Shown piece after piece: positions 54,699-61,352 of a stretch of DNA of 64,000 bases. Numbering within the stretch: the stretch's first letter is position 1; every line of letters starts with the position of its first letter. Source of the DNA: Geminicoccus roseus DSM 18922. GTDB lineage: Bacteria > Pseudomonadota > Alphaproteobacteria > Geminicoccales > Geminicoccaceae. The notes under the pieces were generated by a model. The model was not told where the DNA came from, did no database searches, and worked only from the letters and a program-made list of their open reading frames with translations. Both the position numbers and the translations under genes were made by a program. The stretch is taken from positions 1,095,117-1,159,116 of the forward strand of contig NZ_KE386572.1 of assembly GCF_000427665.1 (NCBI RefSeq), written 5' to 3'.

Positions 54699-54995
54699 TC
54701 AGTCGTCGTCGTCATCGTCATCGTCGTCATCGTCGCCGAACAGCCCGCCCAGGCTGGGCTCCTGCCGGACCACGATGATCACGCGCTGGGTCGCCGCCTC
54801 GATGACGCCCTGCTCCTCGAGATCGGCCAGGGTGTCCTCGACCTTCTCCATGAGGCGGCCCTCGCCGCGGCGCAGCTTCCTCACGCGCCGGCGGCTGTGC
54901 TCGCCCATGTCGATCACGACCATCTCGCTGCTGGTCGGCTCCGGGGGCGAGATGTCCTTCGCCTCGACCTTCTCGACGACGTTGCTGTCTGCCAT
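54699..54995 (-). CDS. Small hypothetical protein with 11-Asp C-terminal tail
   Basis: 98 residues from ATG 54995 with a strong Shine-Dalgarno (AGGAGAAG). The frame is open further upstream but overlaps the next gene, and its composition there is not protein-like. The central basic stretch HSRRRVRKLRRGEG is followed by a predicted helix (GRLMEKVEDTLADLEEQG) and a beta-like VIIVV. The protein ends in GLFG plus eleven consecutive Asp. The core resembles the DUF6200 family as I recall it, unconfirmed. A nucleic-acid or protein-binding role with an acid-mimic tail is conceivable, not shown. Lies 46 bases downstream of its neighbour, likely one transcript. Confidence 0.7.
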   Translation of the reverse strand: MADSNVVEKVEAKDISPPEPTSSEMVVIDMGEHSRRRVRKLRRGEGRLMEKVEDTLADLEEQGVIEAATQRVIIVVRQEPSLGGLFGDDDDDDDDDDD

Positions 54996-55041
54996 CGAAT
55001 CTTCTCCTGGTGCTGACTTGCCGCGGCGCGAGCGGCGGGGC

Positions 55042-55446
55042 TCAGTCACGGCCGCGGATGATGTAGCGGGGCTTGGACTTGCGGATCGATCGGCGCACGT
55101 TGTCCGACAGGTCCTTGATCCAGCCGTCGCGCTTCTTGCTGTTGGAGCGCTCGTGGCGGCCGAGATAGTCGTTGAGCAGGCGCGCCTCGAACTTGATCGC
55201 CCGCCGCAGCACCCGTTCGATCGGCTTGAGCATCGCCGACTGCTTCTTGCGCCGCCGCTCGCCCTCGCTCTCGTAGCGCTCGCGACCCACCAGACGACCA
55301 TGCTGGTCGCGATGGAGCACGGTGACGCGAATGCCCTCGTCGTCGTCGTAGCGGGAATCCCGGTCGGCATCGTAGACCCGGCGCCGAGGGTGATCTCCTC
55401 CAAGCACCACTACGCGCCGAACATCCCTGTCGAGCTTGATCGCCAT
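55042..55446 (-). CDS. Small basic hypothetical protein
   Basis: 134 residues starting at ATG 55446 after a G-rich ribosome-binding region. Highly charged: an N-terminal beta-like part (RRVVVLGG), an acidic DDDEG turn, then a long Arg/Lys-rich helical part containing NDYLGRHERSNSKKRDGW. That last segment resembles a small conserved family I recall as DUF6312, unconfirmed. No signal peptide or membrane segment. It precedes the poly-Asp protein in the same orientation; the opposite charges of the two proteins invite the idea that they interact. Confidence 0.7.
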   Translation of the reverse strand: MAIKLDRDVRRVVVLGGDHPRRRVYDADRDSRYDDDEGIRVTVLHRDQHGRLVGRERYESEGERRRKKQSAMLKPIERVLRRAIKFEARLLNDYLGRHERSNSKKRDGWIKDLSDNVRRSIRKSKPRYIIRGRD

Positions 55447-58414: not shown

Positions 58415-59815
58415 ATGAACAAGCGACGGGCGACCCCGCCTTTGCTTCTCCTTGGCCTTTTCCTCCTGCCGTCGACTATGGCGACAGCCGACACGCTCAG
58501 GGACGCGCTGGTCGAGGCCTATCTACATAATCCGGACTTGGCGGCGGAGCGGGCGGCGCTGCGGGCGACCGACACCCGGGTCGCCCAGGCCCGGGCCGGC
58601 TACTACCCCAACCTCACCGCGACCCTCCAGGGGCAGGTGACGCGCGGCAAGCAGAGCAGCGCCTTCGACTTCCCTTCCGCGCCCGGCTTCGACTTTTCCG
58701 AGTACGAGCGGATCCTGGAAACCCAGGACGCCGATTCGACCTTCGCCACCCTGGCGCTCAAGCAGAACCTCTATGCCGGCGGCGCCACCCAGGCGCGGCT
58801 GGAAGGAGCGGAGCGGCGGGTCCGGGCCGGTCAGGCCAACCTCGTCTCGGTCGAGCAGAACGTGCTGGCGAGCGCAGCCAGAGCCTATGTCGCCGTCTGG
58901 CGGGACCGGAGGCTGACCACCGAATCGGCCGCCAACCACGACCGGCTCACTCGCCAGCTCAAGGCCACGCAGCGCCGGTTCGAGCTGGGGGCGGTGGCGG
59001 AGACCGATGTCGTCCAGGCCAAGGCCCGGCTGGCGCGGGCCGGCGCCGATCAGGACCAGGCGCGGGCCGACCTTGCGGAATCGGAAGCGACCTACGAGCA
59101 GGTGGTCGGGCCGCTTCCGCAGACCTTCTCCGACCCGGAGCCGCTCACCGACCTGCCGGGCGACCTGGAACAGGCCTATGCGCTGGCGCAGAGCAATCCG
59201 GACATCCGCCGCGCCAGCCTGAACGTCGACGCCGCCAGGTCGGATGTCGACGTCGCGTTCGCCGGCCTGCTGCCGAGCGTCGACCTGGTCGGCCAGCTCA
59301 ACTACGCGGACGACCCGAACCCGGCCTTCTACGACCAGCAGAGCGCGCAGGTCGGCGTGACCCTGACGGTGCCCTTGTTCCAGGGCGGCCTCGTCTCGGC
59401 GCAGGTCCGCGAATCCAACCAGACGGTCCGGCAGCTGCAGAGCCAGCAGGAGAGCGCCGCCTACCAGGTCCGCCGCGACGTGCGCACCTACTGGACCCTG
59501 ATCGAGGCGGCGAAGTCTGCGGTACAGGCATTCGACCTGGAGGCCCAGTCCAGCGCGCTGGCGCTGCGCGGGGTCGAGCGGGAGGCGAACCTGGGCCTGC
59601 GCACCGTCCAGGACGTGCTGGATGCCCAGCACGACCTGTTCCAGGCACGCTCCAACCTGGTGCGGGCGCGGGCGAGCGCCGTCAACGCCAGCTACCAGCT
59701 CAAGGCCGCGATCGGCCAGTTGACCGTGGCCAGCCTGACCCTGCCGGTGCAGCCCTACAACCCGGAGATCAACTACGAGATGGAGCGGGTGCGCCTGTTC
59801 GGCCTGGCCGATTGA
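58415..59815 (+). CDS. TolC-family outer-membrane channel protein
   Basis: 466 residues. Signal peptide with hydrophobic core LLLLGLFLLP and likely cleavage after MATA, then the tandem outer-membrane-efflux repeats: LRDALVEAYLHNPDL, a long helical hairpin, an internal second half starting near QAYALAQSNPDI, and outer-membrane beta segments. Ribosome-binding site GGAAGG sits just upstream of ATG 58415. It would complete a tripartite exporter with the RND pump and fusion protein 4 kb away, although a type I export or housekeeping role is also possible. It starts 80 bases after the P450, same strand, perhaps one transcript. Confidence 0.93.
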   Translation: MNKRRATPPLLLLGLFLLPSTMATADTLRDALVEAYLHNPDLAAERAALRATDTRVAQARAGYYPNLTATLQGQVTRGKQSSAFDFPSAPGFDFSEYERILETQDADSTFATLALKQNLYAGGATQARLEGAERRVRAGQANLVSVEQNVLASAARAYVAVWRDRRLTTESAANHDRLTRQLKATQRRFELGAVAETDVVQAKARLARAGADQDQARADLAESEATYEQVVGPLPQTFSDPEPLTDLPGDLEQAYALAQSNPDIRRASLNVDAARSDVDVAFAGLLPSVDLVGQLNYADDPNPAFYDQQSAQVGVTLTVPLFQGGLVSAQVRESNQTVRQLQSQQESAAYQVRRDVRTYWTLIEAAKSAVQAFDLEAQSSALALRGVEREANLGLRTVQDVLDAQHDLFQARSNLVRARASAVNASYQLKAAIGQLTVASLTLPVQPYNPEINYEMERVRLFGLAD

Positions 59816-59876
59816 GCCGGATGCTCCGGACCCGCCGAAGGTAAGAATCTGCTGTAGAAAATATTGTACAAACGAA

Positions 59877-59904
59877 CAGGCCGCCTCCTAACGGAAGCGG
59901 CCTG
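59877..59904. terminator. Hairpin terminator between TolC gene and the small minus-strand ORF
   Basis: Perfect 8-base stem CAGGCCGC / GCGGCCTG with a 12-base loop that has a further TCC/GGA pairing. Read on the minus strand it is followed by a T-rich run (TTCGTTTGT), so it is a convincing intrinsic terminator for the tiny ORF at 59953. On the plus strand it may stop TolC transcription but lacks a T-tract. Confidence 0.6.
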
Positions 59905-59952
59905 CCCGAGATACTGCGCCAGTACCCTGTTCCGGGAGTGGCTCAAGTGATG

Positions 59953-60018
59953 TCAGTTGCTCTTGAAGAACGTGACCGACATCGCCACAGCCGTAACGGA
60001 TACCCGAACGCTCGACAT
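59953..60018 (-). CDS. Putative 21-residue peptide gene with near-perfect Shine-Dalgarno
   Basis: ATG 60018 to TGA 59953 encodes MSSVRVSVTAVAMSVTFFKS plus a final Asn. The ATG is preceded at 7 bases by AAAGGAGGTGATCC (60020-60034), a full complement of the 16S rRNA 3' end, far stronger than any other site in the window. A TTGACA hexamer lies 60 bases upstream of the ATG and a terminator 48 bases downstream of the stop. So the whole looks like a self-contained transcription unit antisense to its neighbours. It could be a secreted or regulatory peptide, a leader peptide or a RiPP-like precursor; I recognise no family. Confidence 0.45.
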   Translation of the reverse strand: MSSVRVSVTAVAMSVTFFKSN

Positions 60019-60076
60019 CGGATCACCTCCTTTCCTTGTTGCCAACTGACCTCAGTCGATCATGACCCCATCGGCT

Positions 60077-60082
60077 TGTCAA
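60077..60082 (-). promoter_or_regulatory. Candidate -35 element for the 21-residue ORF
   Basis: Exact TTGACA on the minus strand, about 60 bases upstream of the small ORF's ATG. No good -10 hexamer lies 16-18 bases downstream (best is a weak TGATCG/TCGACT), so the promoter is only tentative. Confidence 0.3.
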
Positions 60083-60161: not shown

Positions 60162-61352
60162 GTGAAGAAAGCCTTTGTCGCAGGCACCCTCGACACGAAG
60201 GGTCCGGAACTGCGCTACATGCGCGACCTGATCGAGGCGGCCGGCGTGGCGACGGTCCTGGTGGACGTCGGCACGGCAGCGCCCGACCCGGGCGCCGACG
60301 TCGCCGCGCGGAAGGTCGCGGCCTGCCATCCGGACGGGCCGGATGCGGTCTTCACCGGCGACCGCGGCCGCTCCGTGGCGGCGATGGCCGAGGCATTCGC
60401 GGCGTTTGTCCAGGCCAGGGCGGACCTTGGCGGCCTGATCGGTGCCGGCGGCTCCGGCAACACCACGATCGTGACCGCAGCGATGCGCGCCCTGCCGGTG
60501 GGAACGCCCAAGCTCATGGTGAGCACGCTGGGCTCGGGCGACGTGCGTCCTTATGTCCTCGGCTCGGACATCTGCATGATGAGCGCCGTGACCGACGTGC
60601 AGGGGATCAACTCGATCAGCCGGACCGTGCTGGGCAACGCCGCCCATGCCCTGGCGGGCATGATACAGCATCCCATCCCGGTGGTCGCCGACAAGCCGGC
60701 GCTGGCGCTCTCCATGTTCGGGGTGACCACGCCCTGCGTGCAGGCGGTAACCAAGGCGCTGGAGAACGAGTTCGACTGCCTGGTGTTCCACGCCACCGGG
60801 TCCGGCGGCCAGGCGATGGAGAAGCTGGTCGACAGCCGGCTGGTGCGGGGCGTGATCGACGTCACCACCACCGAGATCGCCGACGAGCTGGTCGGCGGGG
60901 TGCTCAGCGCCGGGCCGGAACGGCTGGACGCGATCATCCGGACCCGCACGCCATGGGTCGGCTCGGTGGGCGCTCTGGACATGGTCAATTTCGGCCCGCG
61001 CGCGAGCGTGCCCGAGAAGTTCGAGGGCCGGCTGCTCTATGTCCACAACCCGACCGTGACGCTGATGCGCACGACTCCGGAGGAGAATGCCCGGATCGGG
61101 GCGTGGATCGTCGCCAAGATCAACCGCATGGAGGGGCCGGTGCGCTTCCTCCTGCCCACCGGCGGCGTTTCCATGATCGACGTGCCGGACATGCCGTTCC
61201 ACGATCCGGCCGCGGACCTGGCCCTGTTCCAGGCGATCCGCGATGACTGGCAGGAGGCCCCGAACCGCCGCCTGATCGAGCTGCCGCACGCCCTGAACGA
61301 TCCGGCCTTCGCCCAGGCCCTGGTCGACGCCTTCCACGACATCGCAGGATAG
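60162..61352 (+). CDS. Tm-1-like / UPF0261 family protein
   Basis: 396 residues from GTG 60162, which has GGGAGG eight bases upstream. The start KKAFVAGTLDTKGPEL and the glycine-rich GLIGAGGSGNTT are typical of the UPF0261/Tm-1 ATP-binding family, as are FHATGSGGQAMEKLV and the closing FLLPTGGVSMID. The plant Tm-1 protein, which inhibits tobamovirus replication, is a fusion of this domain with a TIM barrel; here the two halves are separate neighbouring genes. The bacterial function is unknown to me. Cytoplasmic, no signal peptide. Confidence 0.88.
   Translation: MKKAFVAGTLDTKGPELRYMRDLIEAAGVATVLVDVGTAAPDPGADVAARKVAACHPDGPDAVFTGDRGRSVAAMAEAFAAFVQARADLGGLIGAGGSGNTTIVTAAMRALPVGTPKLMVSTLGSGDVRPYVLGSDICMMSAVTDVQGINSISRTVLGNAAHALAGMIQHPIPVVADKPALALSMFGVTTPCVQAVTKALENEFDCLVFHATGSGGQAMEKLVDSRLVRGVIDVTTTEIADELVGGVLSAGPERLDAIIRTRTPWVGSVGALDMVNFGPRASVPEKFEGRLLYVHNPTVTLMRTTPEENARIGAWIVAKINRMEGPVRFLLPTGGVSMIDVPDMPFHDPAADLALFQAIRDDWQEAPNRRLIELPHALNDPAFAQALVDAFHDIAG

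Follow-up and report, generated by a model that had tools for sequence, protein, structure and literature searches.

A predicted small RNA unit of Geminicoccus roseus, by sequence a divergent homologue of CC2171, with a complement of the 16S rRNA tail and a probably translated mini-ORF

In the genome of Geminicoccus roseus DSM 18922, a short unit on the minus strand joins a ribosome-binding site complementary to the 3' tail of the 16S rRNA with an open reading frame of only 21 codons and a terminator hairpin. The first-pass annotation of the analyzed DNA stretch, which is 64,000 nucleotides long and is called the window hereafter, regarded this locus as a self-contained unit for a 21-residue peptide with an exceptional Shine-Dalgarno (SD) sequence. 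The question raised by such a locus is what selection keeps in it, the peptide, the RNA, or the loading of ribosomes onto the RNA. The sequence comparisons reported here make it reasonably probable that the unit is homologous to the small RNA CC2171 and that its translation, rather than its peptide, is under selection.

Anatomy of the unit and its match to the 16S rRNA tail

As read from the sequence, a self-contained minus-strand transcription unit extends from 60082 to 59867, its transcription being predicted. The flanking genes upstream and downstream are both located on the plus strand; an outer membrane efflux gene (PF02321) ends at 59815 and a UPF0261 gene (PF06792/PF23189) starts at 60162. 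The first-pass annotation had placed the unit in the gap between TolC and a Tm-1-like gene; the efflux protein and the UPF0261 protein do flank it, and the designation Tm-1-like was a name of that annotation's own making. The unit has a G+C content of 58% versus 74% in the window. A segment at G000:C5:1509973-1510080 is 71% identical to the 3' part of the efflux gene's coding sequence (window about 59811-59704) and represents a paralogue of this gene. Elsewhere in the window, the translation of a minus-strand ORF (54699-55403) ends in 11 aspartates, which could be a genuine acidic tail or arise from a repeat read in the wrong frame.

The unit begins with the -35 hexamer TTGACA (60077-60082), which is followed after a 17-bp spacer by the candidate -10 hexamer TCGACT (60054-60059), positioned from the spacing and matching the consensus poorly; both hexamers are kept in a copy of the unit from the same genus. 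Among the 155 related units described below, 64 show a match of at least five of six bases to TTGACA at -75 to -31 of the start codon, and 53 of these hexamers begin 63-74 nt before the start codon. The presumed 5' end of the RNA lies at a CAACAAG block (60035-60041, with CAAC at 60041-60038), where the CC2171 model begins as well, and its position matches that of an A/C-rich block at about -24 to -19 in the profile of the 155 units. Next come GAAAGGAGGTGATCC (60020-60034), an extended SD sequence that is a perfect complement of the 16S rRNA 3' tail, and the mini-ORF (59953-60018), which consists of an ATG at 60018, 20 further codons and a TGA and would encode the peptide MSSVRVSVTAVAMSVTFFKSN. 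The unit closes with a predicted intrinsic-terminator hairpin (GCAGGCCGCTTCC...GGAGGCGGCCTGT, 59876-59905), the equivalent of which covaries in relatives, and a T-rich stretch (TCGTTTGTA, 59867-59875). TTGACA, the 16S-complementary site and the 21-codon ORF were thus all found on the minus strand where the first-pass annotation had put them; its hairpin was recovered too, and the T-rich sequence reported behind it proved to be interrupted and weak (TCGTTTGTACAATATTTTC).

The four 16S genes of the genome read CTGGATCACCTCCTTTCTGG, therefore 15 nt of the unit are perfectly complementary to the genome's own 16S tail. A search for GGATCACCTCCTT in the own genome returned six matches, namely these four 16S genes, the window unit and one site elsewhere. 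All four 16S copies end in CTGGATCACCTCCTTTCTGG, and the unit site pairs with 15 consecutive tail bases at -26.8 kcal/mol. When the window stretches matching the complement in 9 or more of 15 positions were screened, the runner-up duplex had -20.1 kcal/mol and its match was interrupted. The longest stretch that any other segment of the window shares with the 15-mer is 9 nt, and AAGGAGG is absent from the rest of the window on both strands, which bears out the earlier statement that the window holds no comparable site. A chance origin of the unit was rejected, because the 15-mer is expected only 4.5e-5 times in the window (0.004 times in 5.7 Mb, dinucleotide model) and the unit recurs in 15 of 31 genomes of the family. 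In Caulobacter, Schrader 2014 (PMC4117421) reports an SD in the initiation site for 24.6% of the coding sequences; against this background, a perfect SD on a small RNA is more striking.

Relatives in Alphaproteobacteria and the CC2171 family

Of 385 genomes of the class, 49 contain the exact pattern GAAAGGAGGTGATCCNRTGTC, always as a single copy, and 336 lack it; the reversed pattern was found in none of the 385. When up to two mismatches were allowed, the pattern was detected in 32 of 133 genomes, and the reversed control gave one match. In one genome that also has a perfect copy, a second copy of the unit's 5' block with one mismatch is present (G035:C1:805112-805132). A lenient DNA search with the unit in 40 genomes, the own one and 39 relatives, recovered the same-genus copy (220 of 251 bases aligned at 83% identity) and, amid many chance matches, a series of short matches of the form CAAC...GAAAGGAGGTGATCC.RTGTC. 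Those of the series that were inspected are followed by a short ORF (in L013 it leaves the contig before the stop), and for them antisense of the 16S rRNA was excluded base by base. A scan of public genomes for the unit pattern gave at least 119 stretches. Among the 80 titles listed, all read as alphaproteobacterial except three termed 'Proteobacteria bacterium', and the listed taxa include Sphingomonas, Novosphingobium, Mesorhizobium, Bradyrhizobium, Methylobacterium, Bosea, Brevundimonas, Defluviimonas, Azospirillum and Inquilinus.

The 155 units used for counting were taken from 171 loci and contain the pattern (one position T or C), 75 nt upstream, 260 nt downstream and a distinct core, shorter or identical loci being dropped beforehand. 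SD and RTGTC were demanded by the pattern, hence their invariance in the 155 units is by construction; less biased are the class search that allowed two mismatches, the start-blind class search for 16S-tail complements and the search of the family with a covariance model. This own model, R1, was built from 22 window-type sequences, all with intact SD, and gave matches in 26 of the 31 family genomes at E<=0.1 and in 15 at E<1e-5, which are exactly the 15 genomes found by the pattern. The remaining matches have E values of 8e-4 or worse and many of them span the terminator only; in the three weak matches read that hold the SD (L250, L251, L260), it is perfect and stands before an ORF of 55-57 codons. 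No unit with decayed SD was found in the 31 family genomes with this model, the reach of which is limited by its training on intact SDs.

Regarding the genomic neighbourhood, one upstream ORF family is common to 30 Sphingomonadales-type loci and another one to 16 Rhodobacterales-type loci, and between groups neighbours are hardly in common (at most 12 of 605 homologous locus pairs). This is as expected for an old gene, which would have been inherited vertically with occasional relocation. The upstream ORF of L026 (Sphingomonas guangdongensis) resembles, by its N-terminus, what we take to be SMC. On the Inquilinus limosus contig L079, the plus-strand segment 7753-7804 matches Rfam whalefall-1 (RF01762) with 44 bits at a gathering score of 37.

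The relation to CC2171 emerged from the Rfam comparison. The model RF01867 aligns over its full length (1-159 of 159) with positions 59878-60041 on the minus strand at 34.6 bits, corresponding to E values of 6.6e-6 in a search of 341 bases and 6e-4 in 30.9 kb. This is below the gathering score of 75, and the window contains no Rfam match at the gathering threshold. Among the relatives, the gathering score is reached by 4 of 18 loci in one set and 2 of 10 in another, which are Bosea (L036), Methylobacterium (L067), Brevundimonas (L087), L109, L158 and L163. At relaxed thresholds the CC2171 model covers the unit end to end (1-159) in every locus tried of two sets, 10 of 10 and 8 of 8; of six more divergent loci it matches five at E<=1, two of these with weak E values of 0.11 and 0.4. 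Intermediate scores of 51-59 bits in L020, L142, L143 and L193 bridge the gap to the 34.6 bits of the window. Both RNAs have the 5' block of CAAC and GAAAGGAGGUGAUCC (model consensus cAAcaA..GAAAGGAGGUGAUCC..UGUC, in the window at 60041-60014), the NUG-UC start, and an intergenic, self-contained arrangement with the hairpin at the 3' end, as predicted for 59905-59876. The window unit differs from CC2171 in its score, and the stem that closes before the terminator hairpin, termed P1 below, is in the window a candidate that is shorter and shifted in register; Rfam describes CC2171 as an sRNA. Since the match is below the gathering score, yet of full length and linked by intermediates, the unit is, on the alignments, a divergent homologue of CC2171 and not a formal member of the family.

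CC2171 itself reportedly goes back to Landt et al. 2008. It is filed in Rfam as a Caulobacter sRNA with no function assigned (RF01867). In the literature on CC2171/RF01867, as far as the sources were available, no paper on its function was found, and the papers naming the RNA are the Rfam 15 article (PMC11701678), which tabulates it among the improved structures, and a Mesorhizobium huakuii survey (PMC5596092), which lists MH_s33 as CC2171 with a sequenced product of 215 nt. A term search in the available texts, supplements excluded, of a Bradyrhizobium small-ORF paper (PMC5082802) and an S. meliloti Ribo-seq paper (PMC10117765) revealed nothing identifiable; the available parts of the Caulobacter Hfq and ChvR papers (PMC11005374, PMC6237742) were also included in the term search. 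The CrfA/SisA sponge of Caulobacter (PMC12559287), considered as a CC2171-type RNA, is a different RNA according to the part of the source at hand.

Start, stop and peptide of the mini-ORF

One way to approach translation is to search for the 16S-tail complement without demanding a start codon. Sites of AAAGGAGGTGATCC were found in 25 of 133 genomes, and one of them (L232, G106) is 16S antisense and was left out. In this search, which excludes C at the third base after the site (the 16S continuation) and hence misses non-start sites with C, an NTG (ATG, GTG or TTG) stands at identical spacing behind all 24 non-rRNA perfect complements, which are related sequences and not independent events. 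The frame beginning at the NTG closes at 14-36 codons in 153 of the 155 units, likewise related and not independent, and at 56 and 59 codons in the other two. Closure in the same range was observed for 55 and 58 of 155 units in the +1 and +2 frames, and for a mean of 53 and a maximum of 73 units when the downstream sequence was shuffled (200 trials). The stop codon is TGA in 86, TAA in 45 and TAG in 24 units; among the Sphingomonadales-type units it is found at codon 19 in 31 of 33, with TAA and TGA being used about equally. We take start, frame and stop to be under selection on the grounds of these comparisons. Lack of conservation of the reading frame in relatives had been named by the first-pass annotation as an argument against the ORF, and the frame with its start and stop turned out to be conserved far beyond the genus.

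The conservation of the peptide is a different matter. One-base codon changes between nearest neighbours were counted in groups of at least three ORFs of one length with nearest pairs differing by at most 35%, five groups having no usable pairs. The Sphingomonadales type, with 29 distinct ORFs of 18 codons, yielded 7 synonymous versus 55 non-synonymous changes, and the synonymous fraction of 0.11 is lower than the null of 0.26 (null at or above the observed value in 299 of 300 and 399 of 400 trials). The Rhodobacterales-type ORFs are near the null (14:34, 0.29 vs 0.31), the 25-codon VSH type lies somewhat above it without significance (18:40, 0.31 vs 0.25, 43 of 400 nulls as high), and a 20-codon group is above the null without significance (3:4, 87 of 400 nulls as high). 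The comparison of synonymous with non-synonymous changes that had been suggested for the 21-residue peptide thus gave in none of the groups tested a synonymous fraction significantly above the null, and between the window and the same-genus copy 3 codons differ synonymously and 4 non-synonymously. The genus g6 of the window's family served as positive control: there a 57-codon ORF stands behind the leader, and its codon changes (L250, L251) are synonymous in 10 cases and non-synonymous in 3; the null fraction is 0.24, and none of 1000 null trials was as high as the observed value. This ORF is under purifying selection, hence the codon test is able to detect it. Moreover, the mini-ORF peptides differ between orders, Pfam gave no match for the mini-ORF peptide, and a GGRGCARYC block near the ORF end in 21 of the 155 units is read in frame 2 in 16 units, in frame 0 in 4 and in frame 1 in 1.

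That the locus functions through its 21-aa peptide, with the RNA serving merely as mRNA, as supposed by the first-pass annotation, is improbable on this evidence. A micro-protein gene would explain the kept start codon, frame and stop, and in its favour one may cite the g6 leader (GAAAGGAGGTGATCC, N, GTG) before a 55-57-codon signal-peptide-like ORF under purifying selection, the 56-59 codons of the Azospirillum-type units and the slight excess over the null in the VSH group. However, it leaves unexplained the divergence of the peptides between orders, and stems account for part of the nucleotide conservation in the mini-ORFs. The peptide as product is unsupported, because the codon changes are near the null, the conserved block is read in three frames and the unit matches a structured sRNA family. 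Of the initial description, the self-contained unit, the exceptional SD and a wide conservation hold, and the peptide as the product that matters does not. The GAAAGGAGGTGATCC leader before a 55-59-codon, signal-peptide-like ORF was seen in L250, L251 and L260 (g6) and in L094 and L145 (Azospirillum-type); a small secreted protein may have taken over the leader, or the reverse.

The family also differs in this respect from dual-function sRNAs such as SgrS/SgrT, Spot 42/SpfP, Pos19 of Rhodobacter and rnTrpL/peTrpL of Sinorhizobium (the latter two judged from partly available sources), to which it is similar in combining a small structured RNA with a short ORF. The peptides of dual-function sRNAs are functional or have been proposed to be so. 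In the family of the window unit, start and stop are kept while the peptide sequence appears unconstrained, the synonymous fraction not being significantly above the null in the groups with usable pairs.

Similarly low is the probability of a purely non-coding sRNA, the 15-nt segment of which would pair with the 16S rRNA or with anti-SD-like sRNAs as antisense or sponge and would not serve as a translation start. The filing of CC2171 as sRNA in Rfam points in this direction, the complement spans the whole tail and exceeds the usual need of initiation, and conservation is dominated by the RNA level. The main evidence against a translated mini-ORF is the result of Schrader 2014 (PMC4117421) that the intergenic ncRNAs of Caulobacter, a count including 27 earlier ones, are untranslated; in the part of that paper available, CC2171 is not named. 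On the other hand, a sponge has no need of the NTG found behind each of the 24 complements, and the in-frame stop within 14-36 codons, realized alternately as TGA, TAA or TAG, would be superfluous for it. The length of the helix does not decide the matter. Extended SD sites with an SD:anti-SD helix beyond the canonical one are real initiation sites in Staphylococcus aureus, therefore a long helix alone does not exclude initiation, although there two additional base pairs occur in many mRNAs and here 15 pairs in a row occur in a single-copy RNA (PMC13009471, available in part). Small RNAs built around SD:anti-SD pairing are also known from alpha-proteobacteria as CCUCCUCCC-loop sRNAs (RS0680a, SmelA075 type), which in the available part of the source (PMC3927594) are presumed to bind ribosome sites of mRNAs. 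Their polarity is opposite, since they carry the anti-SD, whereas the CC2171-type unit carries the SD and complements the whole 16S tail. Because the positions of start and stop are conserved although the peptide is not, we infer that ribosomes load on the RNA and translate the mini-ORF.

RNA folding and a possible role of ribosome occupancy

The RNA of the window has a predicted fold of -83.4 kcal/mol (z -6.46), and none of 200 shuffled sequences was as stable. Covariation was analyzed in three alignments, A1, A2 and A3, comprising 22 of 37, 21 of 24 and 20 of 34 sequences of their type, picked for diversity and length. In 22 window-type sequences, codons 2-4 pair with the segment immediately before the terminator to form the long-range helix P1, in which 4 of 6 pairs are changed on both sides and 85.6% of the cells pair. 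The terminator hairpin has 8 of 9 pairs changed on both sides in these sequences, and P1 and terminator together show 93.8% paired cells versus at most 56.8% with slid partners. Sphingomonadales-type units possess a second hairpin with the stop codon in its loop, for which all 6 tested pairs are changed on both sides and 84.9% pairing is observed versus at most 51.5% when slid. The terminator hairpin was found in 146 of 155 units and ends 98-232 nt (median 157) after the start codon. The 9 units without it were left out of the comparisons of P1 partners and of self-sequestration.

In other clades P1 is formed by CATTGTC with GACAATG or by CATGGT with ACCATG. On average, the own partner binds better than the partners of other groups in 26 of 30 comparisons. 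The margin is small in the window's type (-8.8 vs -6.9 to -8.1 kcal/mol), pairing is weak in Rhodobacterales-type units, the Sphingomonadales-type strand binds the Bradyrhizobium segment almost as well as its own, and P1 of the Bradyrhizobium type is unsupported, its own partner being weaker than four of five foreign ones. In the window, the candidate P1 consists only of TCGAG (60011-60015, from codon 2) with CTCGG (59906-59910, just 5' of the terminator), 5 pairs including one G-U in shifted register, and is unused in the minimum-energy fold.

A fold could also control translation directly, in that an internal copy of the 16S tail hides the SD in a riboswitch-like manner until a signal opens it. 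Near-perfect copies were indeed detected as GGATCACCTCC at about +95 from the start codon in L086 (-24.5 kcal/mol, z -5.5) and as ACCTCCTTTCG at about +71 in L030 (z -4.1), and five of six groups have mean z values between -1.1 and -1.7. However, the Sphingomonadales type has a mean z of only -0.5, the position of the best match varies between groups and internal tail copies are not general in the family. For the window unit itself the best pairing does not stand out from that of shuffled sequences (z -0.45, 28 of 100 as good), and in its minimum-energy fold 7 of 15 SD bases lie in a weak local hairpin, with the GGAGG core mostly open. Given this mixed evidence, self-sequestration was not adopted and appears very unlikely. 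A leader peptide with attenuator for a downstream gene is hardly credible: an attenuator is built in this way, from a short ORF with a terminator behind it, and the largest sets of homologous downstream-side ORFs comprise 13 Sphingomonadales-type and 13 Rhodobacterales-type loci, but in the window no same-direction gene follows, the efflux gene being on the opposite strand and converging, and across peptide groups the downstream side is shared by only 2 of 227 homologous same-strand locus pairs.

The reading we favour, as an inference, is that of a regulatory RNA gated by ribosome occupancy. What selection appears to maintain is the loading of ribosomes and the translation of a short segment of a structured RNA, and not the peptide. 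The anatomy of the family consists of the 16S-tail complement, a start at fixed spacing, a mini-ORF of about 14-36 codons and a terminator hairpin, with P1 in several clades, and where P1 is present its 5' strand comprises codons 2-4, or up to 2-6. The footprint of an initiating ribosome extends about 15 nt beyond the start codon. If it thereby covers the 5' strand of P1, ribosome binding and P1 would be mutually exclusive, and the RNA would therefore have loaded and free forms. P1 would open when the initiating ribosome lies on the codons after the start and close when it is absent, and the strongest possible SD could make loading sensitive to free 30S subunits. Occupancy might thus switch the RNA between two folds and thereby set its stability or expose internal segments that pair with other RNAs; alternatively, the output might be a simple titration of 30S subunits. 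Against this reading speak the score of the window copy below the Rfam gathering score and its short P1 outside the minimum-energy fold. The trans-acting step gated by occupancy, taken alone, is possible but rather doubtful.

A further step would be to regard CC2171 and its relatives as ribosome-sensing RNAs, by which the number of free ribosomes is read out as RNA fold or lifetime, or is buffered; such an RNA would present an optimal binding site to 30S subunits, together with a short reading frame of indifferent sequence. We consider this tentative and unlikely. 6S RNA is a small RNA that mimics an ideal template of RNA polymerase. The likeness of the CC2171-type unit to it would lie in the mimicry of an ideal substrate of a central machine, which is an analogy only, with no homology, and to compare ribosome sensing with the action of 6S RNA on RNA polymerase is speculative to the same degree. 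Sequestration of ribosomes by a CC2171-type RNA is hypothesized here from the complementarity with its -26.8 kcal/mol.

Collectively, an isolated oddity of one genome becomes a statement on a family, since CC2171 relatives in many alphaproteobacterial orders have a 16S-tail complement with a start codon. A mini-ORF that is kept open while its peptide is not kept is unusual. Small ORFs are mostly judged by the conservation of their peptides, and this one would be discarded by such a criterion; RNA families are assumed to be non-coding, and the translation of this one would go unprobed. The family opens to a direct test in model strains the question whether bacteria use RNA to sense or buffer free ribosomes.
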